Below, piece after piece: positions 46,215-63,488 of a stretch of DNA of 64,000 nt. Within the stretch, counting starts at the first letter, position 1. Each line of letters starts with the position of its first letter. Under the pieces are notes generated by a model that was not told where the DNA came from, made no database searches, and was given only the letters and a program-made list of their open reading frames with translations. Source of the stretch: an uncultured Pelagibacteraceae bacterium (GTDB lineage: Bacteria; Pseudomonadota; Alphaproteobacteria; Pelagibacterales; Pelagibacteraceae). The stretch covers positions 124,001 to 188,000 of the forward strand of contig CACMYJ010000002.1 of the NCBI GenBank assembly GCA_902617895.1, written 5' to 3'. A program made the translations under genes and the position numbers.

Positions 46215-46454
46215 ATGACTGCAAATATCAGAATATTAAAATGGACAAGCACAGTTTTGACACTTTTAGGAATATTAACTTTTTATTTAGATTACTATCC
46301 TTATAGCATGATACCTCACAGTTTAGGTATAATCGGTTGGACTTTTGTTGGTACCATTACAAAGGATAAACCTTTATTAACAAATTTTTCACTACAAATC
46401 CCGATAATGATTGCAGGTATAATTAAGTATTCTTATACAACTGGGTTATTTTAA
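46215..46454 (+). CDS. small multi-TM membrane protein of unknown function
   Basis: 79 aa, about 3 hydrophobic segments, strong Shine-Dalgarno AAGGAGAGAAAATG. Confidence 0.7.
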   Translation: MTANIRILKWTSTVLTLLGILTFYLDYYPYSMIPHSLGIIGWTFVGTITKDKPLLTNFSLQIPIMIAGIIKYSYTTGLF

Positions 46455-47590
46455 CTTACTTGGATTCCGTTTGACCAAACATTTTTTACAACTGGTAAAT
46501 TTTGATAAATTTTAAACCTTATTAAATCTGCTCTCTTATTATTGTCAATGGAACCCCTGTCATTTAAATTTGTAGCTATAGATGGAGCGTGACTAGCTGC
46601 TGCAAATGCTTTTGGAAGATTATCAATTTCTAAACCCCATTTGACAACAGATATAATTAATGATGATGGAATATAATCTGAGCTTAAGATATCTAAACAA
46701 TCATTTTCTAAGAGTTCTTTTGCAGATATATTGCCAGAGTGTGAACCTCCTCTAAGTAAATTAGGAGATCCCATCATAACTTTAATATTGTAATCTTTAG
46801 AAGTTTTGGCTGCTTCTAATGTTGTTGGAAATTCAGCCAATTTTACTCCATATTTATTTGAATTATGAACATCATTTTCTGTGGTATCGTCGTGACTAGC
46901 CAAAATACAATCATATGATGATTTAAATTCTAAAATTTTATCTATGTGTTTCTTGCTATTTTTTTTTTGAAGATTTTTTAAGTGATCAAAATGAATTTCC
47001 ATTTCATTTTCTGTCATACCGTGTTTAATTGAAAGATATTCTTTGTACTTATCTATAACTCTAAATTGCCTCTGACCTGGTGTATGATCCATTATACTAA
47101 TCAGTTTTACATCGTGAGTTTCATTGTATTCGTCTAATTCATCAATCAAATTCTCCGAACAAGTTTCAGCTCTTAAATGTATTTTGTGATCAATCTTGAG
47201 AATATTATCTTTTTTAAAACTTGAAATTATATCCGAACAGTTTTTTGCATATTTTTTATATTTTCCTGTTTTTTCAATAGAACCAACTCTTAATGCATCA
47301 AAAACTGTAGTTATTCCAACAGATGCTAATTCTCTATCATGAGATAAAATTGCATTTTCTACTGGAAATGAAACTTTAGGTCTTGGTGTCATGTGTCTTT
47401 CAAGATTGTCAGTATGTAATTCAACCAATCCTGGCGAAATATAATCTTTTTCGCAGTCTATAGAACTTTTGTTATTACTTAATCCACTACTTATATCGAC
47501 AATCTTGTTATCTTTAATCCTGATATGACCATGAACGATTTCATCTTTTTTAATTATCATGGCATTGTTTAAAATATATTCATGCATCAC
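46451..47590 (-). CDS. phnM: alpha-D-ribose 1-methylphosphonate 5-triphosphate diphosphatase
   Basis: SPGLVELHTDNLERHMTPRP, SIMDHTPGQRQFR, SHDDTTENDV, GSPNLLRGGSHSGN, LSSDYIPSSL. Confidence 0.96.
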   Translation of the reverse strand: MMHEYILNNAMIIKKDEIVHGHIRIKDNKIVDISSGLSNNKSSIDCEKDYISPGLVELHTDNLERHMTPRPKVSFPVENAILSHDRELASVGITTVFDALRVGSIEKTGKYKKYAKNCSDIISSFKKDNILKIDHKIHLRAETCSENLIDELDEYNETHDVKLISIMDHTPGQRQFRVIDKYKEYLSIKHGMTENEMEIHFDHLKNLQKKNSKKHIDKILEFKSSYDCILASHDDTTENDVHNSNKYGVKLAEFPTTLEAAKTSKDYNIKVMMGSPNLLRGGSHSGNISAKELLENDCLDILSSDYIPSSLIISVVKWGLEIDNLPKAFAAASHAPSIATNLNDRGSIDNNKRADLIRFKIYQNLPVVKNVWSNGIQVS

Positions 47591-47662
47591 TTTTTAATAC
47601 ACATGAATTGTTACAAATATTTTAAATTAGAGAAAATTTATATAAGTATTATAAGTTGAATT

Positions 47663-48376
47663 ATGAAAAAATATTCTAGATACGCTATTTATTATGCACC
47701 TCCAAAAGAGAGTAGTCTAGAAGAATTTGGCAGATATTGGTTCGGTTGGGATCCACTTAATGCAAAGTTAATAAATAACAAACATAGAATTAATTATCTA
47801 AACAGATTTGGAATTAAAAACTTAATAAACATAGATAAAAATGTTTTAATTGCAAAGAAATATGGGTTTCACGGCACACTTATTCCTCCTTTTAAACTAA
47901 ACAAAAATTATAGTACCAATACATTATTTAAAAAAACTGAGGAAATAGCAAAAAAATTCAAAAAATTTAAATTTTATAAATTTAAATTAAAAAAAATGAA
48001 TAATTTTTATGCTTTTGTTCAAAATAAAAGAAATAATAACATTAATAAGTTATCAAATAGACTAGTTAGAGAATTATTTAAATTTAGGTCACCTCTTACA
48101 AAAAAAGAAATTGATAGAAGAAATCCCTCTAAACTAAGTAAATTACAATTAAATATTTTATATAAATGGGGATACCCCTATTTAATGTCAGAATTTAATT
48201 TCCATATGACCCTTGCATCAGAGGTCACAGGAAACAAATTGTACCTTGAGTTAAAAAAAATTGAAAGAAACAAAGAAATCATTTTAAATGAAATAAATAA
48301 TTTTGATAAAATATATATATTTGGTGAAAACCAAAAAGGAATGTTTGAGAATTTAGAAAATTTTTCACTTAGCTAA
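47663..48376 (+). CDS. DUF1045 phosphonate-associated 2H phosphoesterase-like protein
   Basis: YAPPKESSLEEFGRYWFGWDP; HxT motifs FHGT and FHMT; inside the phn locus. Confidence 0.9.
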   Translation: MKKYSRYAIYYAPPKESSLEEFGRYWFGWDPLNAKLINNKHRINYLNRFGIKNLINIDKNVLIAKKYGFHGTLIPPFKLNKNYSTNTLFKKTEEIAKKFKKFKFYKFKLKKMNNFYAFVQNKRNNNINKLSNRLVRELFKFRSPLTKKEIDRRNPSKLSKLQLNILYKWGYPYLMSEFNFHMTLASEVTGNKLYLELKKIERNKEIILNEINNFDKIYIFGENQKGMFENLENFSLS

Positions 48377-48901
48377 AATTATTTTTTTCAATTTATTTGC
48401 ACCTATAGCTATTGATTTATTATTATTTATAGTAATTATATTTTTCGGTAGTAAATTAATTTTTCTTTTTATCCTTTTATTAATTGATTTTTTGTCTTCT
48501 CTAGCTCGATTTACAAGTCTCTTTTTAATAATTGTTGATGGGGCAATAATATTAATTATTTTAACGTTATTAACTTTTTTTTTTACTTTAAAAAGTACTT
48601 TTCTTGATCCATTAAAAATTACTGTTTTACCTTCCTCTATTTTTTTTATTTCCTTAAATGGAATACCGTATGAAAAACCATGAGCTTTCCAGTAAACAAA
48701 GAAATGTTTTTTTAAAATCTTATCTTCAAAATTTTTAATTGATATGCTGTAATGATCTTCATTTTTAATATCTTTTTTCCTAGTAATGTACCTTTTTACC
48801 AAAATGGAATTAGGAATTTTTTTAATTACTTTTTTTAATAAAGTATCTTTTCCTGATCCTGATGGTCCAACGACTACGATAAGCTGACCGTTATTTTGCA
48901 T
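48365..48901 (-). CDS. phnN: ribose 1,5-bisphosphokinase
   Basis: VVGPSGSGKDTLLKK, KRYITRKKD, HFFVYWKAHGFSYGIP. Confidence 0.93.
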   Translation of the reverse strand: MQNNGQLIVVVGPSGSGKDTLLKKVIKKIPNSILVKRYITRKKDIKNEDHYSISIKNFEDKILKKHFFVYWKAHGFSYGIPFKEIKKIEEGKTVIFNGSRKVLFKVKKKVNNVKIINIIAPSTIIKKRLVNRAREDKKSINKRIKRKINLLPKNIITINNNKSIAIGANKLKKIILAK

Positions 48902-49568
48902 CTGATATTTTTGTAATATCTATTTCCCTAGCATTTAAATATTTACGTGAATATTCATCATGAAAAATACCAATTATTGAAGATCCACTATCTTTTTTTT
49001 CATTAATCAAATTCAAAACAATATCTTTGTTAACACTATCTAAACTAGCAGTTGGTTCATCTAGTAATAAACATGGATAATTTCTAATCAGTCCCCTAGC
49101 AACATTAACTCTTTGTTGTTCTCCACCTGAAAAAGTTAGTGGCGATAAATTCCATAAGTTTTTATCTATATTAAGTTTTAGTAAAATTTTTTCAGCTTTT
49201 TCACGAACTTCATCTTTATCTGAATTTATTTCTAATAAGGGCTCCATAACAATTTCAATTGTAGGAACACGAGGTATCACTCTTAGAAATTGACTAACAT
49301 ATCCTATTATATTTTTTCTAAGTTCAATAATATTTCTCGGATATGTATGATCTATGTTGTGATTATTAATTTTAATTTGTCCTGATTGAAAAACATAGTT
49401 TCCATAAATCATTTTTAAAATACTAGACTTTCCAACACCTGATGGTCCTGTTAACGCTACAATTTCTCCAGGATTAATTTTCAAATTCAAATTATTAAAA
49501 ACTAATATGTTTGTTTTGCCCTGATTATGAAGTGTAAATTTTTTTGTAATTTTATTTAGTTCAATCAT
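48891..49568 (-). CDS. phnL: C-P lyase subunit PhnL (ABC ATPase)
   Basis: GPSGVGKSSILKMIYGNY, TIEIVMEPLLE, FSGGEQQRVNVARG. Confidence 0.95.
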   Translation of the reverse strand: MIELNKITKKFTLHNQGKTNILVFNNLNLKINPGEIVALTGPSGVGKSSILKMIYGNYVFQSGQIKINNHNIDHTYPRNIIELRKNIIGYVSQFLRVIPRVPTIEIVMEPLLEINSDKDEVREKAEKILLKLNIDKNLWNLSPLTFSGGEQQRVNVARGLIRNYPCLLLDEPTASLDSVNKDIVLNLINEKKDSGSSIIGIFHDEYSRKYLNAREIDITKISDAK

Positions 49569-49570
49569 TT

Positions 49571-50338
49571 TTAAACCTGTAATACTGAACTAACTAATAA
49601 CTGAGTATAAGAATGTTGCGGATCATCTAATACCTGATCACAAAGTCCAGACTCAACAGCCTCCCCATTTTTCATAACAATAATTTTATCAGCTAACAAT
49701 CTAATCACTGCTAAATCGTGAGAAACGATTACAACTGATAAATTTAATTCTCTAACTAATTTTCTTAACAAATCTAAAATTTTTGCTTGAACAGAAACAT
49801 CAAGACCTCCTGTTGGTTCGTCCATGAAAATTATTTTAGGACTCGTAACCAAATTTTTTGCTATTTGTAATCTTTGCAACATTCCACCAGAAAATGTTCT
49901 TGGAAAATCATCTACTCTACTTTTATCGATTTCTACTTTATCTAACCATTTAAAAATAGTTTGCCTAATATTTCCATAATTTCTTTGTCCAATCGACATT
50001 AATCTTTCACTAATATTTCCACCAGCACTTACATCTAATCTTAAACCGTCTCTAGGATTTTGGTGAACAAAAGCTAATTCAGTTCTTATCAATAACCTTT
50101 TCAATGACTCAGATATTTCTAGAAAATCAATCGTTTCATTACCTGTTTCAATTAAGATTTTTCCACTATCAGGAATAAGATTGCCTGATATGGAATTTAT
50201 AAAAGTTGTTTTTCCTGAGCCAGATTCTCCTACTACACCAACGACTTCCCCAGGATATAATGTCAAATTCATATTTTTGCATCCCACTTGATTACCGTAA
50301 TATTTGTTTAAATTATGAACTGACAAAATTGGTTGCAT
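49571..50338 (-). CDS. phnK: C-P lyase subunit PhnK (ABC ATPase)
   Basis: GESGSGKTTFINSISG, FVHQNPRDGLRLDVSAGGNISERLM, FSGGMLQRLQIAKNLV. Confidence 0.96.
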   Translation of the reverse strand: MQPILSVHNLNKYYGNQVGCKNMNLTLYPGEVVGVVGESGSGKTTFINSISGNLIPDSGKILIETGNETIDFLEISESLKRLLIRTELAFVHQNPRDGLRLDVSAGGNISERLMSIGQRNYGNIRQTIFKWLDKVEIDKSRVDDFPRTFSGGMLQRLQIAKNLVTSPKIIFMDEPTGGLDVSVQAKILDLLRKLVRELNLSVVIVSHDLAVIRLLADKIIVMKNGEAVESGLCDQVLDDPQHSYTQLLVSSVLQV

Positions 50339-51220
50339 TTAATTATTTTCCATTCTTTGATTACAATAATTTGTATCTGAACATATAAATGATCTATTAC
50401 CGTCATCATCAGTAATTATTTCATCTAAAAAACTCTCATTTGATCCACAAATAGAACATTTATGAGGTGCCTTTGAGGGATCAAATGGATAATCCTCAAA
50501 ATCAAGACTCGTTACTTCAGTATATGGTGGTATTGCATAAATTCTTTGCTCTCTTCCTGCTCCAAATAATTGAATAGCAGGGTTATTGTTCATTTTTGGG
50601 TTATCAAATTTTGGAATAGGTGATGGGTCCATTATATATCTTTCATTTGTCTTTACTGGATAAGCATATGCTGTTTCTATATGACCATTTTTGGTAATAT
50701 CTTCATATAACTTTACATGCATAATTCCATATTCTGATAGTGCATGCATTTTTTTAGTTTCTTGATATCTTGGTTCTAAAAACGCAAGAGGTTCTGGTAT
50801 TGGAACTTGATAAACAAGTATTTGTTTTTCTTTTAACTTTTCTTCTGGAATTCTGTGTCTTGTCTGAATTATCGATGCTTGGCTTGTTTTTTCTGTGGTC
50901 TCAATATTAGCAGTTTTTTTAAAGAAATTTCTAATTGAAACTGCGTTTGTAGTATCATCTGCTCCTTGATCAATAACTTTTATCACATCGTCAGTTGTTA
51001 AACATGACGATGTTACTTGAACCCCTCCTGTTCCCCATCCATATGGCATAGGCATTTCTCTAGATGAAAATGGAACTTGATAACCTGGTATACAAAGAGC
51101 TTTAATCAAAGCTCTTCTTATCATTCTTTTTGTATTTTCGTCTAAATAAGCAAAATTATAAATTTCATCTTGAGCTGCAACAGTATTTTTTTTATTTTTA
51201 AATTTAAGTACGTTGTTCAT
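50339..51220 (-). CDS. phnJ: C-P lyase PhnJ (radical SAM)
   Basis: YNFAYLDENTKRMIRRALIKALCIPGYQVPFSSREMPMPYGWGTGG; Cys spacing CX2CX21CX5C. Confidence 0.98.
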   Translation of the reverse strand: MNNVLKFKNKKNTVAAQDEIYNFAYLDENTKRMIRRALIKALCIPGYQVPFSSREMPMPYGWGTGGVQVTSSCLTTDDVIKVIDQGADDTTNAVSIRNFFKKTANIETTEKTSQASIIQTRHRIPEEKLKEKQILVYQVPIPEPLAFLEPRYQETKKMHALSEYGIMHVKLYEDITKNGHIETAYAYPVKTNERYIMDPSPIPKFDNPKMNNNPAIQLFGAGREQRIYAIPPYTEVTSLDFEDYPFDPSKAPHKCSICGSNESFLDEIITDDDGNRSFICSDTNYCNQRMENN

Positions 51221-52283
51221 TTTTTTTATACTCTTCTCTAATTTTTCTTACTAAATCCAATTCCGCCTGAAAATCTACATAATGAGGTAATTTGATATGT
51301 TCTAAAAAACCTGTGGCTTGAATATTATCACAATGAGATATAACAAATTCTTCATCTTGAGCAGCAACACCTAAGTACTCCTCACCAAATTCTTTCCATC
51401 TCATTGATCTATCAACTAAAGCCATAGAAATAGCTTTTCTCTCTAATTGACCAAAAACTAAACCATATCCACGGGTAAATTGAGCAGGTATTTTTTTACT
51501 ACCTTTAAATTGGTTTACTGACTCACACTCAGTAAACATGACATCAGCAATATTTATTTCTATACCTAATTCTGGAATTTCAAATTGAACCTCAACGTAA
51601 CCAGTTCTTAATTCACCAACAAATGCATGGTTTCTAGCATAACCTCTCTGTGTTGAGTAAGCTAAACCAAGAAGAAAACCCTCATCTCCTCTTGAAAGAG
51701 ATTGCAATCGTTCAGATCTTGTTAAAGGAAAATTAATTGGGTTTCTTGTAATATCTTTAGATGTTTTGCCACTAGGTATTTCTTTCTGAATTAATCCTTC
51801 TTTATTTAAAAAGCTTAAAACATGCGGGATTTCTTTATCATCATATTTTTCAATCTTAGCTTTTTCATACTCACCATCAGCAAGAAGTTTGAAGTCAAGT
51901 AAACGGTGTGTGTAGTCAAATGTTGGGCCTAACTTTTGTTTACCTGGGATATCTTTAAATGTTGCAGATATTCTTCTCAGGCATAACATTTTGCTAGTTT
52001 CGATAGGTTTGCTTGAACCAATTCTAGGTAAAGTAGTTCTATAGGCTCTCATTAGAAAAATTGCTTCAATCAAGTCACCTCTAGACTGTTTGATTGCAAG
52101 AGCAGACAAATCTTTGTCATATAAAGATCCTTCTGACATAACTCTATCAACACTTAAAGTTAGTTGTTCACTAATTTGTTTAATATTTAGTTCTGCTATA
52201 TTTACATCACCTCTTCTTATTTCAGATAACCAAGAATGTGCATTATTGATTGCCTTTTCTCCACCTTTTACAGATACATACAT
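51204..52283 (-). CDS. phnI: C-P lyase subunit PhnI
   Basis: MYVSVKGGEKAINNAHSWL, RAYRTTLPRIG, RRISATFKDIPGKQKLGPTFDYTHRLLDF. Confidence 0.97.
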   Translation of the reverse strand: MYVSVKGGEKAINNAHSWLSEIRRGDVNIAELNIKQISEQLTLSVDRVMSEGSLYDKDLSALAIKQSRGDLIEAIFLMRAYRTTLPRIGSSKPIETSKMLCLRRISATFKDIPGKQKLGPTFDYTHRLLDFKLLADGEYEKAKIEKYDDKEIPHVLSFLNKEGLIQKEIPSGKTSKDITRNPINFPLTRSERLQSLSRGDEGFLLGLAYSTQRGYARNHAFVGELRTGYVEVQFEIPELGIEINIADVMFTECESVNQFKGSKKIPAQFTRGYGLVFGQLERKAISMALVDRSMRWKEFGEEYLGVAAQDEEFVISHCDNIQATGFLEHIKLPHYVDFQAELDLVRKIREEYKKNEQRT

Positions 52284-52284
52284 T

Positions 52285-52839
52285 TTATAGTTCTCCTATT
52301 TTTAGTGATCTTGGTATTGAATAAAATTTATCATTATCAACAAAATAAAAATCAAGTCCTAATGGAAATTGCTGGTTATTTTTTTTTATAATCTCTCTAT
52401 CAGGTAAAAATATACTTTTAGAACTTTTAATACCAGGACCAGTAATTATGGCATTTGGTTTTTCAAATTTAGACTGGCAAATAATAGTGCACGATTGATC
52501 AGGATTTTGGTCGTCCCCTTTTTTAAATTCATCTAATGGTAAAAGATCATCCCAAATACCAATTGCAAAATTTGCATTTTTTTTATCTGTAATATTTGCA
52601 CCTGTATTAAATTTAATCCAATCAATAGTTTCTGGATTGTTAATATCACGACCTAAAAAAATATTCGAATAACTGTCACAAAAAGTTTTTATAATTGAAC
52701 AACTGGCTGAAAACATTTTCGAAGGCGAATTTATACTGTCTAATATTTCGATCGAACCAGGATATGAAGTTGCAAACAAAATACTTCTAAAATAATCAGC
52801 ACTTGTTTGAGAATTATTTTTTTTAGAAACAACTTCCAT
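52285..52839 (-). CDS. phnH: C-P lyase subunit PhnH
   Basis: FRSILFATSYPGSIEIL, ITGPGIK, FPLGLDFYFVD; position between phnI and phnG. Confidence 0.93.
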   Translation of the reverse strand: MEVVSKKNNSQTSADYFRSILFATSYPGSIEILDSINSPSKMFSASCSIIKTFCDSYSNIFLGRDINNPETIDWIKFNTGANITDKKNANFAIGIWDDLLPLDEFKKGDDQNPDQSCTIICQSKFEKPNAIITGPGIKSSKSIFLPDREIIKKNNQQFPLGLDFYFVDNDKFYSIPRSLKIGEL

Positions 52840-52842
52840 AAA

Positions 52843-53298
52843 TTATTTATCCTCACCTCTTACCAAGGTAAAAAAATCAACCTTAGTAGCTTCTGTTTTA
52901 GATAATATTTCATTTCTTTTGTTATTTTTATATTTAATTAATTTATCTATTATATTTCTTTTAATTATTTCTTTTTTTTCAGTTTGCATCAATGCATCAC
53001 ACAAAGCTGCAATTTTGGATTTATATTTATTTCTACCTTGAACATAACCATGGCCTTGGATTTTTTTATCTAAATTTAATGAACATCTCGTTATAGTTAC
53101 TTCTCCAACATTAAAATTATCACCTGTGGCGCCTACTTTTCCCTGAACCATAACACTGCCAATCTCAGGTTCTCTTAACCAATTATATTCTATTTTCATA
53201 TTTAAATTGTCCCAAAGCGAAATGAGATAATTTTCATCTGCTGTTGCTAAAGAACTTAACCATTGTTTTCTTGATTCATTTTGCATAATACTATACAA
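52843..53298 (-). CDS. phnG: C-P lyase subunit PhnG
   Basis: LREPEIGSVMVQGKVGATGDNFNVGEVTITRCSL, HGYVQGRNKYKSKIAALCDALMQ. Confidence 0.95.
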   Translation of the reverse strand: MYSIMQNESRKQWLSSLATADENYLISLWDNLNMKIEYNWLREPEIGSVMVQGKVGATGDNFNVGEVTITRCSLNLDKKIQGHGYVQGRNKYKSKIAALCDALMQTEKKEIIKRNIIDKLIKYKNNKRNEILSKTEATKVDFFTLVRGEDK

Positions 53299-53352: not shown

Positions 53353-54063
53353 ATGACAACAAAAGATTTGCTTTGGAAGGAAATATACAATTCAATCAAA
53401 AGAGAAATTGTTTTAAATAAGTACAAAATTAATAAAAAGTTAGATTCTGAGAATGACTATGCAAAACAATTCAATGTCAATAGACACACTATAAGAAGAG
53501 CTTTTAAAGAACTTAAAGATGATAATTTAATATATTCAAAAAGAGGTCTTGGAGTATTTGTTAAATCATCAAAAATTAATTACTCAATTAGTAAAAACGT
53601 ACGATTTACTGAGAATATACTTGAAGAAAACCAATCAGTAAGAATTGAAATAAAAAGTTTTGATATTGCTGAATGCAATCCTTTTGAAAAAAAAGAACTC
53701 AACTTAAAAAAAAATGACAAAGTTACACGCATAAATAGCATAGGTTTTGTCAACAATTCACCTTCTGTAATAACTTTCAGATCGATTCCTTATAAAAAAT
53801 TTCCAAAATTTATTAATTATTTTGTTAAAAAACAATCAGTAACCAAAGCTTTTAATTTATTGAATATCAAACTAATTAAAAGATCAAAAACTCTAATCAA
53901 TGCTGAAATTGCAGACAAAATAAAATCAAATTTATTAAATATAAATGAGGGGGAAGCACTATTAAAAACTACATCTGTTAATGTCGATTTTAAAAACAAT
54001 CCTATAGAGTTAAGTGAAAGTCATTTTATTGGATCTAAAATTCAATTTTTAATAAAAAATTAG
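53353..54063 (+). CDS. phnF: GntR/HutC-family regulator PhnF
   Basis: N-terminal wHTH (NDYAKQFNVNRHTIRRAFKELKDDNLIYSKRGLGVFV) plus UTRA-like effector domain; divergent from phnG. Confidence 0.92.
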   Translation: MTTKDLLWKEIYNSIKREIVLNKYKINKKLDSENDYAKQFNVNRHTIRRAFKELKDDNLIYSKRGLGVFVKSSKINYSISKNVRFTENILEENQSVRIEIKSFDIAECNPFEKKELNLKKNDKVTRINSIGFVNNSPSVITFRSIPYKKFPKFINYFVKKQSVTKAFNLLNIKLIKRSKTLINAEIADKIKSNLLNINEGEALLKTTSVNVDFKNNPIELSESHFIGSKIQFLIKN

Positions 54064-54170: not shown

Positions 54171-54995
54171 ATGATTATTAAAAAAGTTAACAAATTTTTC
54201 GGTGATAATCATGCCGTTAAAAACGTTTCTTTTGAGGTTAACAAACCTCAAATGATAGGAATCATAGGTAGATCTGGGGCTGGTAAATCAACATTACTAA
54301 GAATTATAAATCGACTTACCGACGCAACAGATGGGTCGATTGAAATTGAAGGTCAAAATATTCTAGATTTAAAAAGTAAGGAAAAGAGATCATGGCAAAG
54401 AAACTGTGCAATGATTTTTCAACAATTTAATTTAGTCCCACGATTAGATGTTCTAACAAATGTAATATTAGGCAGATTAAATTATCAGGGCTCATTTAGA
54501 GCATCCTTAAAAATGTTTTCTCGAGATGAAAGAGCTGATGCTCTGATTTTACTCAATAACTTAGGTATGGCTAACACTGCCCTTCAAAGAGCTGAAACGT
54601 TATCTGGAGGTCAACAGCAACGTGTAGCTATATGCAGAGCTTTGATGCAAAATCCTAAAATGATTTTAGCAGACGAACCTATAGCATCTTTAGACCCAAT
54701 GAATGCAAGAATGGTAATGGAGTCATTAAGAAAAATTCATGATGAAAAAAATTTAACGGTCATTTCAAATCTTCATACCCTAGATACAGCAAAAACCTAT
54801 TGTGACCGTATTATTGGAATGAAAGATGGCGCAATTGTCTTTGATGATGTACCAGAAAAATTATCAGACAAACTTGCAAGAGAAATTTATGGTGCAGAAG
54901 CTGATGAAGCTTTTGAACCACAAGTAACATCCACTGAGCTTAAAACAAAAAAAAAGATAAATGGAGATGTTGAGAAAGAATTTGCAACTGCATGA
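54171..54995 (+). CDS. phnC: phosphonate ABC transporter ATP-binding protein
   Basis: [60 protein letters not shown]. Confidence 0.96.
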
Positions 54996-55055
54996 GATCA
55001 ATAACTCATCGTTACAAATAAGTCGTTAGACTAAAATTATAAAAAGGAGATAATT

Positions 55056-56006
55056 ATGTTTAATAAACTAACAAGAGTTATTGCACTTTTGGCTATGGTG
55101 TTTTTTTCAACTCAAGCTAATGCAGTAACTTACACAGGTCCAAAAATGGACTTAAGTAAATACCAACCAGAGTTTAGAGTTGGTTTTTTAGGTGACGAAG
55201 CAGCTCAAGATATTATAGCTAGAAATGAATGTTTCATGCCGTATATCGAAGCCGCTTATGGTGTACCAGCTAAATTTTTTACTTTTAAAGACTACGCTGG
55301 AACAATGGAGTCGATGCTAGGTGGTAATCTAGATTACACTTGGTTCGGTTCTTCAGGTTACGCAGGTATGTATTTAAAAGATCCAACTGCAGTAGTACCA
55401 GTACTAACAAGAATGCAGCCAACAGGTGATATGGGCTACTACTCTGTTGCAGTAGCAACTAAAGCATCTGGAATTAAATCAATGGCAGATCTTAAAGGTA
55501 AATCTTTTGGTTGGGCTGACCCTAACTCTACATCAGGTTTTTTAATTCCTTCAATTGAATTAAAGGCTATGGGTATGGACCCAGATACATATTTTTCAAA
55601 AACACAATTTTCTGGTGGGCATGAAAACAATGTATTAGCGGTAATGAATGGTGATGTTGATGCTGGTGTAACATGGGTATCTGGTGTTGGTAGCTGGGAA
55701 GAAGGATATTCGTCAGGGAATTTAAGAAAAATGGTTGATAAAGGGATTTTAAATATGGACGACATTGTTCAAATTTGGTCTTCAAAATTAATTCCTAATG
55801 GTCCAATTGTGATGCCTACTTTTTTACCTGTTAGAGCACACCAAGTAATGATTGGTTTAAAGCAATGGATACACGAGAACGATCCAAAATGTAGCGAAAA
55901 CGTTGCAAACGGGATTGTAAAAAAATGGGTTCCGGTGGATCATTCTTTTTACGAGTCAGTTGTAGCTGCAAGAAAAGCTAAAATTGAAGCGCAAAAAAAT
56001 AATTAA
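55056..56006 (+). CDS. phnD: phosphonate ABC transporter substrate-binding protein
   Basis: signal peptide, FRVGFLGDEAAQDIIARNECFMPYIEAAYGVPAKFFTFKDYAGTMESML; strong SD AAGGAG. Confidence 0.96.
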   Translation: MFNKLTRVIALLAMVFFSTQANAVTYTGPKMDLSKYQPEFRVGFLGDEAAQDIIARNECFMPYIEAAYGVPAKFFTFKDYAGTMESMLGGNLDYTWFGSSGYAGMYLKDPTAVVPVLTRMQPTGDMGYYSVAVATKASGIKSMADLKGKSFGWADPNSTSGFLIPSIELKAMGMDPDTYFSKTQFSGGHENNVLAVMNGDVDAGVTWVSGVGSWEEGYSSGNLRKMVDKGILNMDDIVQIWSSKLIPNGPIVMPTFLPVRAHQVMIGLKQWIHENDPKCSENVANGIVKKWVPVDHSFYESVVAARKAKIEAQKNN

Positions 56007-56019
56007 TTAAACCTCCTAT

Positions 56020-56056
56020 AATCAGAGGCAAAGACTGTAAATCTTTGCCTCTGATT
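56020..56056 (+). terminator. strong hairpin between phnD and phnE (attenuating terminator or 3'-end stabiliser)
   Basis: AATCAGAGGCAAAGA-CTGTAAA-TCTTTGCCTCTGATT, 15-bp perfect stem, 7-nt loop, followed by TATTTTTT. Confidence 0.85.
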
Positions 56057-56071
56057 TATTTTTTAAAAATT

Positions 56072-56926
56072 ATGACAAAAGCCTTACCTGCCAACCTAGA
56101 ACAAATTGAAGTTAATTTAAAAAAATTAACAAACCAGAGAACTAGGTCCTCGCTACTTGGAATTGCAATTCTAATATTAATTTTTTTTGGTGGTACCTTG
56201 GTATCGTTAGAAGCAAATGCAGGGTCTTTTGGAAGAGGTATAGCTAATTTTTTTAACTACCCTAGAGATTTATTTGTAGACACTTTTGAGATGGGATGGA
56301 AATATTGGCCAAGAGTTATTAAGTATATTCCTGAATTAATTATTACTTTAAATATTGCTTTATTTTCAACTTCGATCGGATTTGTTTTGGCAGTTATTTT
56401 TGCAATCTTCTCTAGTAGAAATTTAATAAGAAATAAAAGAGTTATTCAATTTACAAAATTTTTTATGGATGTGACAAGATCATTTCCAACATTAATAATA
56501 GCAATGGTGTTTTTATATTTGATGGGTAAATCATCTTTACCAGCAGTGATTGCTATTACGATACACACTGCTGGAGCACTTGGTAAATTATTTACTGAGG
56601 CTATAGAAAATTGTGATGGAAAACCTATTGAAGGTTTAAGTTCTGTTGGTGCAACCTGGACACAGAAGATAAGATTTTCAGTTCTTCCCCAGGTACTACC
56701 TTTGTTTTTAAGTTATGGAATATTGAGGTTAGAAATTAATGTTAGAGAATCTACAATATTAGGTTTTGTTGGTGCAGGTGGAATTGGAGAAATGTTAGCA
56801 GCTTTAATACAATGGAATTATGGAGCTGATGTTTTAGCGTGTATGTTCTTACTGGTTGGTACGATAATTGCATTAGATTATTTGTCTGCATATTGGAGAC
56901 ATAAATTAATTGGAGCAAATCAATGA
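56072..56926 (+). CDS. phnE: phosphonate ABC transporter permease PhnE1
   Basis: MTKALPANLEQIE start lies after the hairpin; GALGKLFTEAIEN, RESTILGFVGAGGIGEML. Confidence 0.95.
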   Translation: MTKALPANLEQIEVNLKKLTNQRTRSSLLGIAILILIFFGGTLVSLEANAGSFGRGIANFFNYPRDLFVDTFEMGWKYWPRVIKYIPELIITLNIALFSTSIGFVLAVIFAIFSSRNLIRNKRVIQFTKFFMDVTRSFPTLIIAMVFLYLMGKSSLPAVIAITIHTAGALGKLFTEAIENCDGKPIEGLSSVGATWTQKIRFSVLPQVLPLFLSYGILRLEINVRESTILGFVGAGGIGEMLAALIQWNYGADVLACMFLLVGTIIALDYLSAYWRHKLIGANQ

Positions 56927-58323
56927 GTTCTAGTTTAGCTATTCAAAGAGAAAATATTCGTAAATTATTTCCTGACACATTCAATCAAGCTAGAAAAAGT
57001 AGATTAAGAGGCCAAATAATTTTTTTTCTCGTCTTAGTATATTTAATAGTAGGTTTTTTTACTTTAGATGTTGTTGATATCCCAAAAAAATGGAAACCAC
57101 AAAATGCTGCTATGTTTGTCTTAGACACATATGCACACAAAGATCATGTAACAATGAAATGGGAAAATCATGAGGATATTAAAATAGCTTTTGAAGGAAA
57201 TTATAGAAGTGTTTATGGAATAGATAATCTTGATAAATCAATTCCAGATTGGTTTTATAAAAATTCTGATAAAGTTGGCAATGTAGTTGAGTTTAATAAT
57301 AAAGGTAAGGCAATATTATACAAAGATAAAGTCGAGATTGTAAATTTTCCAAAATATGAGAGAGATTTTACCATAAAATTAAATTCTAATGGTAAACCTT
57401 ACCTTGTAGGTTCAGAGGATTTGGTCATAGAAGATTTAAAAGGTTTTAGAATCACAGAAAATAGAGTTGAATTTAGACCAACTTTGTATGAGAGAATTCA
57501 AGTATATCCAAAAAAAGTTGAAATTCATCGTTACAGTATCGGATGGAAATATTTTTGGTTTGATTTCTCAAGTCCGTTAGAACCATATACCTTTTTCGAA
57601 GCATTAGGTTTGACTTTTTCTAAAGAAAGAGTTGTTCCTGAAATGTCTAATTTAAAACTTTTCTTAACAGAGATTAAGGATAATGAAGCATTTATGCACG
57701 GTAGAGTTTGGTGGGCAATGCTCGAAACAATAGTTATGGCTGTACTTGGGACAATGTTTGCTACGGTAATGGCTCTGCCCTTGTCATTCCTTGCTGCATA
57801 CAACGTTACACCTATTAAAGCTCTAAGATTTACGTTAAGAAGATTATTTGATACTTTAAGAGGAATAGACTTTTTAATTTGGAGTTTAATATTTTTAAGA
57901 GCTTTTGGTCCAGGACCCTTCACTGGTATTTTTGCGATTGGTTTTACTGATACAGGTACTTTAGGTAAATTATATTCTGAAGCAATTGAAAATACTGAGA
58001 AGAAACAACAAGAAGGAGTTAAATCTACAGGGGCTAGCAAATTTCTACAACATAGATTTGGTATAATTCCTCAAATACTTCCAATTTTTGTATCTCAATC
58101 CTTATACTATTTAGAGTCAAATACTAGAGGAGCCGTAATAATAGGTGCAATGGGCGCAGGAGGAATTGGTTTACAATTTTTAGGTGCACTAGGTACTGGA
58201 AATGATTTTGAAAATGTCGCCTACATGGCAATATTAGTTTTGGCTGTAGTAATATTTATGGATAGATTATCTGCTTGGCTTAGAAGAATATTAATTGGAT
58301 CAGATCAATTAATTGTAAGGTAA
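56923..58323 (+). CDS. phnE: phosphonate ABC transporter permease PhnE2 with large extra domain
   Basis: C-terminal permease motifs GTLGKLYSEAIENTEKKQQEGVKSTGA, GAVIIGAMGAGGIGLQFL; ~200-aa insertion after the first TM. Confidence 0.95.
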   Translation: MSSSLAIQRENIRKLFPDTFNQARKSRLRGQIIFFLVLVYLIVGFFTLDVVDIPKKWKPQNAAMFVLDTYAHKDHVTMKWENHEDIKIAFEGNYRSVYGIDNLDKSIPDWFYKNSDKVGNVVEFNNKGKAILYKDKVEIVNFPKYERDFTIKLNSNGKPYLVGSEDLVIEDLKGFRITENRVEFRPTLYERIQVYPKKVEIHRYSIGWKYFWFDFSSPLEPYTFFEALGLTFSKERVVPEMSNLKLFLTEIKDNEAFMHGRVWWAMLETIVMAVLGTMFATVMALPLSFLAAYNVTPIKALRFTLRRLFDTLRGIDFLIWSLIFLRAFGPGPFTGIFAIGFTDTGTLGKLYSEAIENTEKKQQEGVKSTGASKFLQHRFGIIPQILPIFVSQSLYYLESNTRGAVIIGAMGAGGIGLQFLGALGTGNDFENVAYMAILVLAVVIFMDRLSAWLRRILIGSDQLIVR

Positions 58324-58390: not shown

Positions 58391-58819
58391 TCAATCTTTC
58401 CAGAATTTCCACCAAGGTTTTTCTTCCTTTGTTATCTCATTATTGTCAACAACAACTTTAGTTATAGATGGATCCTCTCCATCTACTAATCCTGCTCTAG
58501 CAGTTGTTTTAGCGTCTTCTAATTTTAGTTTTGCCTCAAAAACTCTGTTTTCATTACACAATTTCATGCCCTCTTTCATTAATGCTTCTGCCTCAGATGC
58601 TTTTTCGGGACTAGATCTTGAAATATCATTTTTAACAGTGGCTCTTAACATAAGTACGCCAGGGTCTTCACAATTCCCTATTTCATTTTTAAATGTATCC
58701 TCAGTATTTTGTGAATAACTACTGCCGGCTTGTTGCTCTGTTATTTTAGCATGATTGTCAGCTTGAGTAATAGAAATTGTGGATAAAGTTAATATAAATG
58801 AGATTAAGATTTTATTCAT
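58391..58819 (-). CDS. exported hypothetical protein
   Basis: signal peptide MNKILISFILTLSTISITQADN; helical body; EEKPWWKFWKD C-terminus. Confidence 0.65.
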   Translation of the reverse strand: MNKILISFILTLSTISITQADNHAKITEQQAGSSYSQNTEDTFKNEIGNCEDPGVLMLRATVKNDISRSSPEKASEAEALMKEGMKLCNENRVFEAKLKLEDAKTTARAGLVDGEDPSITKVVVDNNEITKEEKPWWKFWKD

Positions 58820-58873: not shown

Positions 58874-60046
58874 GTGAAATATTTGTCTGCATTTTTAATA
58901 GGTATATCAGTTACCTTTTGTTACAGCAGTTGTATGTATCTGTTCTCAGCGTTGTTGCTAACTTGGGAAAATGAACTTAGTATCTCAAGGAATAATTTAA
59001 CCTTTATTTATTCTCTAGGCTTAGTTGTGCATAGTTTACTTTTACCTTTTCTAGGTAAGATTGTAGATAGAAATCTAAGTTTTCCAATGATGTGGACCAG
59101 TCCTATACTGTTAGGACTAAGTGTAATTTATCTTTCATCAGTAGATACATATGGTGGATTTTTACTTGCTTGGATACTTGTCAGTGCAACCTCGGGTGGC
59201 TGTCTTTATACGATGCTTTTTAGTGTCATTACTATTAATTTAAAATCAAAGGCCAAAACATCTATTGCAATAATTACTTTATTTGCTGGATTTGCAAGCA
59301 CATACACATTTCCTACTGCTACTTATTTAACAGAACAATATGACTGGAGGTTTACTGTATTTATTTTTGGAATATTAAATATATTGATTAGTTCACCAGC
59401 TAATTATTTTGGTTTCAAAAATATAATTATAAAAGAATTTAAAAAAATTGAAAAGAAAACAGATCAAAATTCAAAGCTTAAAATAATACTTAAAGATTAT
59501 AGATTTTGGTTATTTAGTTTTTCATTGTTTGTTATTGGATTTAATATTGGTGCTATTACAACTCATGTAATTCCAATGTTGCAGGAAAAAGGGATGAGTC
59601 TATCCCAAGCTGTATTGACAGCATCTCTGTTTGGACCAGGACAAGTAATAGGTAGAATTTTAGTTATGATATATGGAGGTGATAAGTCAAATTTAAAATT
59701 ATTTGTAATTTGTTTTTACTCGATGGTAGTTGGAATGATATTTTTATACTTTATAAATATTAATCATTACTTAGCATTTTTATTTGTTTTATTTAATAGT
59801 TCAGCATATGGCAGTATGGCTATTTTAAAACCTTTGGTTCAAAATGATACTTTTGGCCAAAAAAACTTTGGCAATATTCATGGTATTTTAGCTTTGCAAT
59901 ATATGATTGGTAGTATTGCTGGTCCATGGATTGGTTCGTTGGTATGGAATGTAGGAGGATATGATTTGTTAATATTAGTATTTTTTGTTTTAGCAATATT
60001 TGGTAACTCGACAGCAATTTTTTTAAACAAAAAAAAGTTTATTTAA
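58874..60046 (+). CDS. major facilitator superfamily transporter, GTG start
   Basis: ~12 TM segments, MFS loop LGKIVDRNLSFP, GPGQVIGRILVM. Confidence 0.85.
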   Translation: MKYLSAFLIGISVTFCYSSCMYLFSALLLTWENELSISRNNLTFIYSLGLVVHSLLLPFLGKIVDRNLSFPMMWTSPILLGLSVIYLSSVDTYGGFLLAWILVSATSGGCLYTMLFSVITINLKSKAKTSIAIITLFAGFASTYTFPTATYLTEQYDWRFTVFIFGILNILISSPANYFGFKNIIIKEFKKIEKKTDQNSKLKIILKDYRFWLFSFSLFVIGFNIGAITTHVIPMLQEKGMSLSQAVLTASLFGPGQVIGRILVMIYGGDKSNLKLFVICFYSMVVGMIFLYFININHYLAFLFVLFNSSAYGSMAILKPLVQNDTFGQKNFGNIHGILALQYMIGSIAGPWIGSLVWNVGGYDLLILVFFVLAIFGNSTAIFLNKKKFI

Positions 60047-60593
60047 AGCTTCTCTCTACGTGTTTGTAAAAATAATTTATATTTGGAATTTCTAAATTTT
60101 CAATTTTAGCAAGATCATCATATTTTCTTAATCTAACTGCATCTTGCATAAAAGGTTGTTTAATAAATTCGTTTGCTTCCTCTTTGGAAAAACTTCCTCC
60201 TTGGACATCTAAACTTCGTTTTGAAGCAATAGATAAAGACTCATAATAACCTTTTTCACAATAAACCAAATATCTTTTAGCCGGAACATGTCCTTTAATT
60301 AATATTGTAACATCTTCTGGAAAAAATCTAGAAAGAAAAAGAGATCCTGAATTTTCATGCTTTTTATCTATTCCTTTTTTTATGGCTTCTTTGTCATTAT
60401 TAATTAAGTGACCAATATCATGGAATAGGGCTGCAGTAATAAAAAAATGGTTTTCATTATTTTTTTTTGCCAATAATGCGCATTGAATTGCATGTTCTAG
60501 TTGTGAAACTTTTTCATTTCCATATTGTTTGTCTGATCCAATTTCTTCTATAATTTTAAATAAATTGGCAATATTTGACATATTATCCATCAT
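60039..60593 (-). CDS. PhnZ-like HD-domain diiron oxygenase (phosphonate degradation-associated HDIG protein)
   Basis: QYGNEKVSQLEHA, AALFHDIGH, HENSGSLFLSRFFPEDV, GHVPAKRYL, SLDVQGG. Confidence 0.9.
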   Translation of the reverse strand: MMDNMSNIANLFKIIEEIGSDKQYGNEKVSQLEHAIQCALLAKKNNENHFFITAALFHDIGHLINNDKEAIKKGIDKKHENSGSLFLSRFFPEDVTILIKGHVPAKRYLVYCEKGYYESLSIASKRSLDVQGGSFSKEEANEFIKQPFMQDAVRLRKYDDLAKIENLEIPNINYFYKHVERSFK

Positions 60594-60688
60594 ATTCTTT
60601 TAAATTAAAAATGTTTCAGTTTTATTACAATTTAGATTTAGTACTCATTAAGTATAGAAAAAATATTTTATAGTAATAAAAGTTAAAA

Positions 60689-61144
60689 ATGAAAAAACTT
60701 TTATTTGTTTGTACTGGCAATTCTCACAGAAGCATATTGGCCGAAAGTGTAGTTAATAAATTTCATAAAAATAAATTTATTGGTTACAGTGCGGGTAGCA
60801 AACCATCTGGAATAATTAATAAATATGTCATTAAGTATCTAAATGAAAATAATTTTGATACAAAAAATCTGTCATCAAAAAACTTCAACAAATTCTTGAA
60901 TGAGAAAACAACCTTTGATCAGGTATTTACTGTATGTAACAATGCTAGTAATGAAGTTTGTCCAGTCTGGCCATCCCCTGAAAAAATAGTTCATTGGGAT
61001 ATTGAAGATCCTGTTTATATCATTAATGAGTTAGAGAAGAGTGATAAACCAAATAAAGAAGAGCTGATTTCAACAGAAATACATAAAACTTATTCCAATT
61101 TAGAAACAAGAATTAATGATTGGATAAAAAATTATGAAATATAG
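60689..61144 (+). CDS. arsC: arsenate reductase, low-MW phosphatase-like (thioredoxin-type)
   Basis: FVCTGNSHRSILAES (CX5R), FTVCNNASNEVCPVWPSPEKIVHWDIEDP. Confidence 0.92.
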   Translation: MKKLLFVCTGNSHRSILAESVVNKFHKNKFIGYSAGSKPSGIINKYVIKYLNENNFDTKNLSSKNFNKFLNEKTTFDQVFTVCNNASNEVCPVWPSPEKIVHWDIEDPVYIINELEKSDKPNKEELISTEIHKTYSNLETRINDWIKNYEI

Positions 61145-61811
61145 TAAGTTTTTTCTTGGAGAGTTTATTGGTAGTTGTTTCCTTGTAATGATTATTGTTG
61201 GCTCAGGAATAATGGCTGAAAATCTTACAAATGACACAGGTATTATGCTTTTAGCCAATACTATAGCAACTGGCGCAGGACTTTTTGTGCTAATAACTGT
61301 TTTTAGTGATGTTTCAGGAGCACATTTTAATCCATTTGTAAGTCTAGCAATGTTTCTTACAAAAAAATTAAAAGGAAATTTATTACCCACATATATATCT
61401 GCGCAAATTTTAGGTTGTTTGTTAGGTGTAGCACTTGCCAATTTCTTTTTCGAACATCAAATTTTTGAATTATCAACAAAATCAAGGGACGGAATAAATA
61501 TATTTACATCTGAAATTGTAGCAACATTTGGATTGATACTGATAATTTTTGGATCATTAAAGAAAGGAAGTGTGGTAGTGGCCTCATGTGTAGCTTTTTA
61601 TATCACTGCTGGTTATTGGTTTACATCATCTACATCATTTGCAAATCCTGCTGTAGCAATAGCGAGAACATTTACAGAAAGTTTTACTGGAATTAATTAT
61701 ATGTATACTCCAGTTTATATATTAGCAGAAATTATCGGTGCACTTTTTGCTGTATTTGTGGCTAAAAAAATGCTTTTCAATAACAGGACAAGAGATAAAA
61801 CTATCTCGTAG
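61134..61811 (+). CDS. MIP/aquaporin family channel, AqpS-like
   Basis: FLGEFIGSCFLVMIIVGSGIMA, HFNPFVSLAMF (first box NPF) and SFANPAVAIARTFTESFTGI (second box NPA); overlaps arsC by 11 bp. Confidence 0.9.
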   Translation: MKYSKFFLGEFIGSCFLVMIIVGSGIMAENLTNDTGIMLLANTIATGAGLFVLITVFSDVSGAHFNPFVSLAMFLTKKLKGNLLPTYISAQILGCLLGVALANFFFEHQIFELSTKSRDGINIFTSEIVATFGLILIIFGSLKKGSVVVASCVAFYITAGYWFTSSTSFANPAVAIARTFTESFTGINYMYTPVYILAEIIGALFAVFVAKKMLFNNRTRDKTIS

Positions 61812-62650: not shown

Positions 62651-63488
62651 CTAAAACCAGTTTATATTTTCTTTGTCACAAAGTTCTTTCAGCCTTAATG
62701 GATAGTCTGTCATGATACCATCTACACCATACTCAATCATTTTTAACATATCGTTCTCTTCATTAACTGTCCAAACGTTCACTGGCAAATCTTCTTGATG
62801 AGAAATATCTACTAGTTTTTTTGTAATATCTTTATGGTATGGATGCAAAGCCTTTCCACCTTGTGATTTTATAATTTTTGGTAATTCATATTTTTCAAAA
62901 AAAGGTAAGTAACTCATCCATGGAGATCTATTGTAAATTGTATTTTTAATTTTAATTCCTGCCTGTTGTTGAAAACTTAAATAAGCTCTTGAAATTTCAG
63001 GGTAAAGATTTTTGATTTCTGTCAGTGTTCTCCAATCAAATGAAGAAATGATTATTTTATTTTGTAAATTTGATTTATTTACTTCTTTCATAACAAGTTT
63101 TACCATTTCCTCTGGGGTTGGAGTTAAATTTTCCTCGTCAGGTGTAGATTTAATTTCTAAATTTATTAACAAATCTTCTTCCATATCTAGATAATTTATT
63201 TAAAGACCCAACATCAAATTTTAAAAGCTCATCGTAACTTAAGTCAAATATTATTATATTTTCATCCGTTATCCAATTTCCCTCATTATCTTTTGTAAAA
63301 CTTGGATCTAATCTAAAGTCATGTGTAATCACAGGAATAAGATCTTTGGAAATCAAAATATCTGTTTCGTATGCATTAATATTGTTTTTAAATAAATATT
63401 TAAAACTTTCTAAAGTATTTTCAGGAAGATCTCCTCTAGCGCCTCTATGGCCATAAATTTTAATATAATTTGGCTTTGATAAAATCAA
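62651..63488 (-). pseudogene. glycerophosphodiester phosphodiesterase split into two overlapping ORFs (63150-63488 and 62651-63184)
   Basis: N-half GHRGARGDLPENTLESFKYL, AYETDILISKDLIPVITHD; C-half LLINLEIKS, SFDWRTL, VNVWTVNEENDMLKMIEYGVDGIMTDYPLRL in a different frame. Confidence 0.75.

Follow-up and report, generated by a model that had tools for sequence, protein, structure and literature searches.

A PhnZ-type oxygenase gene without a PhnY* partner in the phosphorus-acquisition island of a SAR11 bacterium, probably ancillary to C-P lyase

PhnZ-type oxygenases in described phosphonate pathways

In the mechanism described for PhnZ, the substrate pulls a tyrosine off Fe2, a glutamate holds the amino group and O2 binds, after which hydrogen is abstracted at C1 and the C-P bond breaks (PMC8177086, PMC10574752). 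The YxxE loop has been assigned a role in substrate gating (PMC8177086). PhnZ-type enzymes are normally paired with a hydroxylase that makes their substrate. PhnZ of the uncultured bacterium HF130_AEPn_1 (4MLM/4MLN) has the 2-AEP hydroxylase PhnY* as a partner, and the hydroxymethylphosphonate (HMP) dioxygenase of Gimesia maris and Prochlorococcus MIT9301, which belongs to the same family, has PhnY. HMP has been reported in marine DOM, and MIT9301 grows on it alone (PMC6581173).

In a second setting, phnZ supplements a phosphonate pathway of a different kind. phnZ genes without phnY* occur in phnWX clusters (15 of 1186) and in phnWAY clusters (24 of 75), with PbfA never present and (R)-1-hydroxy-2-aminoethylphosphonate (R-HAEP) as the proposed substrate (Zangelmi et al. 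2021, PMC8154272). PbfA, the (R)-HAEP ammonia-lyase, has the same proposed job, in that its pathway accepts a ready-made hydroxylated aminophosphonate (PMC8154272), but it is a PLP enzyme unrelated to PhnZ. In the sea, phnZ subclades have already been separated (PMC8316502), and Pelagibacterales account for 45% of marine phnZ in a survey that reads the gene as 2-AEP catabolism (PMC9381506). Thus, family, fold and chemistry are already known, as is the use of phnZ as an add-on enzyme of other pathways; in a search of the open literature that covered part of the published work, no description was found of a C-P-lyase-coupled, PhnY*-less PhnZ from SAR11.

The gene described here comes from a SAR11 bacterium (Pelagibacteraceae) whose genome comprises 1.17 Mb in 22 contigs and is 83.7% complete; the stretch of 64,000 nucleotides that was analysed is referred to as the window. 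The window PhnZ shares with the HF130 enzyme the fold (TM up to 0.92), all metal ligands and the phosphonate-site residues, with Y24 and E27 bearing the same numbers in both, but the two are 33-34% identical and fall in different clades, and the window enzyme has no PhnY*. The PhnY partner of the HMP dioxygenases is likewise missing. With TmpB (6NPA) it has in common the YxxE motif and the ligands at 34% identity, but no linkage to TmpA. The phnWX/phnWAY type, also a phnZ without phnY* added to another phosphonate pathway, is the type to which its nearest non-SAR11 relatives belong; in the window, however, the main pathway is C-P lyase, and phnX is present with no phnW above cut-off.

The window phnZ and its phosphorus island

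The features around the gene are as follows (window coordinates).

46451..53298, minus strand: C-P lyase operon, phnG-H-I-J-K-L-N and phnM
47663..48376, plus strand, opposite to the C-P lyase operon: DUF1045/TIGR03223 phosphonate-operon protein (174 bits, cut-off 249)
53353..54063, plus strand: PhnF-type GntR/UTRA regulator
54171..58323, plus strand: phosphonate ABC importer phnCDEE, made up of the next four genes
54171-54995, plus strand: phnC
55056-56006, plus strand: phnD
56045-56926, plus strand: phnE1
56923-58323, plus strand: phnE2
58391..58819, minus strand: small exported protein, no family match
58874..60046, plus strand: MFS transporter, 390 aa, convergent with phnZ with an 8-bp overlap
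60039..60593, minus strand: phnZ, predicted PhnZ-type HD-domain mixed-valent diiron oxygenase, 184 aa, ATG start (from profile, PDB, alignment and model)
60594..60688: divergent intergenic region between phnZ and arsC, 95 bp
60689..61144, plus strand: ArsC, an arsenate reductase-like protein of the LMW-phosphatase/thioredoxin type
61134..61811, plus strand: MIP-family channel

Beyond the MIP channel, on the plus side of phnZ, lie a DUF1868 gene, a glycerophosphodiesterase-like gene and the end of a ugp-type ABC transporter, and the contig continues past the window with the rest of this transporter, a glpD-like gene, phnX, ppx, ppk, phoB, phoU, pstB, pstA, pstC and pstS, several of the island names (e.g. 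glpD, phoU, pstA and pstC) being assigned from sequence and gene order rather than by a profile. The phosphonatase gene phnX is located 5.8 kb past the window end (L161:6879-7673; G000:C2, about 193.8 kb) and scores 278 bits against a cut-off of 220. The gene content on either side thus places phnZ mid-way in a phosphorus-acquisition island. No phnW was found above cut-off in the window genome, and no PbfA was recognised in the island. By its sequence context, phnZ appears to be ancillary, with no phnY* and with linkage to a different phosphonate pathway that is complete (C-P lyase with phnCDEE).

The small exported protein is conserved beside phnE2 in both SAR11 families, within their C-P lyase loci. 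The glycerophosphodiesterase-like gene consists of two overlapping frames in the window (62651-63488; 177 and 112 aa), is split likewise in loci L033 and L061, and forms a single 307-aa frame in L062-L067. A Pho-box scan of the region gave matches everywhere in the AT-rich DNA and was uninformative, and a search of viral contigs for close relatives returned none.

By motif, profile, fold and selection, the window protein is an intact PhnZ-type oxygenase, for which a mixed-valent centre and C-P cleavage are predicted. A preliminary description had read a PhnZ signature in Y24, E27, H34, H58, D59 and H62, with HE and HVPAKRY further on, and each of these was found in place. In particular, alignment with PhnZ identifies H34, H58-D59, H79, H102 and D159 as the diiron ligands, all six of which are kept, and Y24/E27 as the YxxE substrate-gating loop; K106, S124, R156 and K163, which like D159 had not been named in that description, are also aligned, the phosphonate-site residues are kept, and H79-E80 and HVPAKRY (102-108) are present. 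Across a 52-sequence alignment, H34, H58, D59, H62, H79, H102, K106, R107, S124, Q131, R156, D159 and K163 are invariant, and Y24 and E27 nearly so. The best of all NCBIfam models is TIGR03276, a hypothetical equivalog named 'phosphonate degradation HD-domain oxygenase' (Phn-HD), which matches residues 8-182 with an E value of 2.4e-60 and 203.1 bits, slightly below its curated cut-off of 214.6 bits; the models for HMP dioxygenase (NF052439, 155.7 bits) and TmpB (NF049941, 141.4 bits) stay far below their cut-offs of 300. Among PDB sequences, PhnZ is matched with an E value of 1.4e-28 and TmpB with 5e-27; like the TIGR03276 match, these lie well beyond what chance would give. In parallel, the AlphaFold model (pLDDT 91) has as its best Foldseek match the substrate-bound PhnZ 4mln_B (TM 0.92, rmsd 1.5), with PhnZ and TmpB structures at TM 0.82-0.92, MIOX at 0.54 or less and HD hydrolases below 0.5. 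The dN/dS of phnZ between SAR11 species is 0.09-0.16, which indicates that the gene is maintained under purifying selection.

Partner hydroxylases and the link with C-P lyase

The lack of a PhnY gene in the window, as first described, holds for the whole contig, which contains no PF05721 or PF02668 match, and a genome-wide search gave the same picture: with the PhnY* (2-oxoglutarate hydroxylase) model, nothing scored above cut-off in any of 101 genomes, those of the window bacterium (84% complete) and of 100 relatives. The window genome encodes two PhyH-family matches, one above the family cut-off, which are ruled out as PhnY* (22 bits against a cut-off of 500), and six TauD-family matches, none on the contig of phnZ. 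It also encodes a TmpA-like protein of 373 aa, which is present in 80 of the 101 genomes, mostly without a window-type PhnZ, and absent from a genome (G054) whose PhnZ is identical to that of the window; this distribution rules it out as a dedicated partner. On these searches the window PhnZ stands as an orphan, with no PhnY* or TmpA partner linked or co-occurring, in a genome whose 83.7% completeness means that a partner could be missing. The orphan state is no oddity, since phnZ without phnY* has been published beside phnWX and phnWAY (PMC8154272) and many of the nearest relatives are of the C-P-lyase-linked form.

These proteins form the basis of the strongest competing explanation, namely a normal two-enzyme pathway in which an unlinked 2-oxoglutarate oxygenase (the TmpA-like protein, a gamma-butyrobetaine-dioxygenase-like protein or a TauD-like one on C4) hydroxylates the phosphonate. 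One of the six TauD-family and two PhyH-family proteins could serve as the hydroxylase, which counts against reading PhnZ as dependent on ready-made substrate, and the TmpA-like protein scores higher for TmpA (339 bits, cut-off 400) than for gamma-butyrobetaine dioxygenase (255 bits). In addition, other Pelagibacter species have a different PhnZ copy between TauD-like and GMC oxidoreductase genes, a pair that is adjacent in the window genome without PhnZ. The occurrence of the TmpA-like gene irrespective of PhnZ, the lack of any linkage within the island and the 141 bits of PhnZ on a TmpB model with a cut-off of 300 speak against a hidden partner, which we consider unlikely.

The second Pelagibacter group itself is found in many genomes, in a carnitine/betaine locus where genes for a TauD-like dioxygenase and a GMC oxidoreductase resembling choline dehydrogenase flank it (e.g. 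L040:1660-3033, L042:8652-10033 and L045:7954-10901). There, TauD and PhnZ could act as hydroxylase and oxygenase on a betaine-like phosphonate, a pairing so far unrecognised. The corresponding empty TauD-GMC site of the window genome is in locus L141 (G000:C4, around 84166-84930).

The distribution of the window-type gene follows that of C-P lyase. Among 300 genomes of the genus, phnJ is present in 9, every one of which also has window-type PhnZ (at least 90% identical), and PhnZ of this type is present in 12 overall (Fisher p 5e-15); the three genomes with PhnZ and no phnJ are each 65-70% complete. When 101 relatives spanning the second SAR11 family are considered, 15 of 17 phnJ genomes have a PhnZ of the window type or of a second phn-linked type, and of the two exceptions one is on a 3.7-kb contig and the other has its expected phnZ position off the contig start. 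This tight co-occurrence backs a phosphonate role for PhnZ.

The second SAR11 family has a comparable order (phnF-GHI... / MFS / phnE2E1DC / phnZ / phosphatase-like gene / phnX), with a PhnZ that stems from a different branch of the tree. This protein (L034 type) is the highest scorer on the HMP-dioxygenase model, at 187 bits, and to judge from that score may prefer HMP. Phe replaces the gating Tyr24 in it (L034, L036, L037, L038, L051 and L052). A PTP-SAK/dual-specificity-phosphatase-like gene comes directly after phnZ in the second family and in phnW-linked alphaproteobacteria (L034:8186-8701, L051:9418-9933, L080:9562-10086 and L082:9565-10089); the window locus does not have it.

The 80 closest loci in named genomes, which are the nearest relatives of the window PhnZ and not a random sample, include 35 in which C-P lyase genes lie no more than 9 kb away (of these, 13 are of the window's own type), 8 with a PbfD-type FAD gene, 7 with phnW adjoining phnZ (marine alphaproteobacteria, often with phnA) and 7 with a PhnY*-type neighbour, all Poribacteria; C-P lyase and PhnY* are found together in none of the 80. 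The nearest relatives outside SAR11 adjoin phnW and have no PhnY*; the AEP-pathway genes for PhnA and phosphonoacetaldehyde dehydrogenase are often close by. In a tree with the PhnZ and TmpB structures as references, which include no proven HMP dioxygenase, the window type is sister to this phnW-linked group with moderate support (93/89). C-P-lyase-linked PhnZ recurs in cyanobacteria, Burkholderiales and alphaproteobacteria and does not form one clade, a single origin being rejected (AU p 1e-5). Together with the locus counts, this indicates that C-P lyase accompanied by a PhnZ lacking PhnY* is a recurrent arrangement. A single origin of both SAR11 groups is not rejected (p 0.26), and therefore no independent recruitment within SAR11 is claimed. 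In Nostoc-type cyanobacteria, the C-P lyase operon itself includes phnZ, with a phnM-like gene on one side and phnJ on the other (L084, L085, L086, L087, L088, L090 and L110).

The same association could be read as protection: if 1-hydroxyphosphonates were poor or inhibitory substrates for C-P lyase, PhnZ would clear them and the gain of phosphate would be secondary. The tight association in SAR11 and the recurrent placement in C-P lyase operons of other phyla, as in Nostoc, by genes that are not one clade would fit such a role, but PhnZ is also found in settings that do not involve C-P lyase, beside phnW, phnX or PbfD-type genes, and we regard this explanation as improbable.

Neighbouring genes, substrate and significance

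The convergent overlap with the MFS gene was confirmed at 8 bp (58874-60046 against 60039-60593). A role of the MFS neighbour as phosphonate importer finds no support: its closest named family is ArsK, of which it is a distant relative (127.1 bits on NF033733, cut-off 400), and arsC and the MIP channel follow. The MIP channel is probably the partner of ArsC, presumably for an AqpS-like exit of arsenite, and the two would fit protection against arsenate entering through phosphate uptake. Together with arsC-MIP, the MFS gene looks at least as much like a part of arsenic detoxification. Three ArsK-like MFS proteins, distantly related to each other (about 24% identical), are found in phn/PhnZ loci.

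It could then be asked whether the HD protein is part of an arsenic module, so that the compound it oxidises is not a phosphonate but an arsenic analogue, for instance a hydroxyalkylarsonate. In line with this, phnZ lies between the ArsK-like gene and arsC-MIP, the 12 of 300 genomes with the MFS gene are precisely those with window-type phnZ, the phnW-linked relatives also have arsC within a few genes of phnZ, and an ArsK-like MFS gene (224 bits) comes after phnZ in a Burkholderiales C-P lyase locus. However, most other homologues with readable context are in phosphonate loci without ars genes, ArsC-family genes are present in 155 of 300 congeners, mostly without window-type PhnZ, and ArsC is expected beside phosphate or phosphonate uptake because arsenate enters by the same routes; an arsenic substrate is therefore highly improbable. 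Just as little credit is given to a non-oxygenase phosphohydrolase resembling PhnZ by chance, since, although the HD superfamily consists mostly of hydrolases (PMC8177086) and Pfam recognises only a generic HD domain, this reading is rejected on fold and motif by the retained YxxE loop, H...HD...H...H...D ligands and substrate-site residues and by the clean Foldseek separation from HD hydrolases.

The explanation that we prefer, with a probability of about 0.7, is that the window PhnZ is an ancillary dioxygenase with which SAR11 obtains phosphate from ready-made 1-hydroxyphosphonates without C-P lyase; we infer its activity, its substrate, the uptake of that substrate and regulation by phosphate. 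PhnCDE or another importer would bring in a phosphonate already hydroxylated at C1, uptake being the simplest answer to the question of its source; the mixed-valent Fe(II)/Fe(III) centre of PhnZ would then use O2 to cleave the C-P bond, yielding phosphate and a carboxylic acid, and the remaining phosphonates would be handled by C-P lyase. All residues needed for the PhnZ mechanism are present. An independent route for pre-hydroxylated phosphonates beside C-P lyase, as initially suggested, is thus the best reading, with its phosphonate role backed by the co-occurrence with phnJ, but its substrate is not selectable from sequence. In particular, the YxxE motif does not permit a choice, as it is common to (R)-HAEP and (R)-OH-TMAEP enzymes.

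The favoured substrate, at somewhat less than even odds, is R-HAEP, which would be converted to glycine and phosphate; the tilt towards it comes from the sister position of the window type to phnW-linked PhnZ. HMP, giving formate and phosphate, comes second as a distinctly less likely candidate, and another 1-hydroxyphosphonate is slightly less likely still. To our knowledge, R-HAEP is scarcely documented in nature. Also against the preferred reading, phnX occurs without a phnW above cut-off, so that the logic of the AEP pathway is incomplete in the window genome.

SAR11 is the most abundant group of marine heterotrophs, and its C-P lyase is known to release methane from methylphosphonate. With a PhnZ alongside, such cells would have a further route, dependent on O2 and free of methane, by which hydroxylated phosphonates yield phosphate. 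The Pelagibacterales PhnZ genes in this analysis have no recognisable PhnY* and form at least three groups with different neighbours, which bears on surveys that read phnZ as 2-AEP catabolism (PMC9381506). Two terminal enzymes of the island lack the first enzyme that usually precedes them, PhnZ being found without PhnY* and PhnX without PhnW. It is conceivable, as a tentative proposal, that both run on imported or leaked intermediates and that C-P lyase-bearing SAR11 feed on the oxidised aminophosphonates of other organisms. If this were true, there would be a dissolved pool of hydroxylated phosphonates that is missed by phnZ surveys taking the gene as a marker of 2-AEP.
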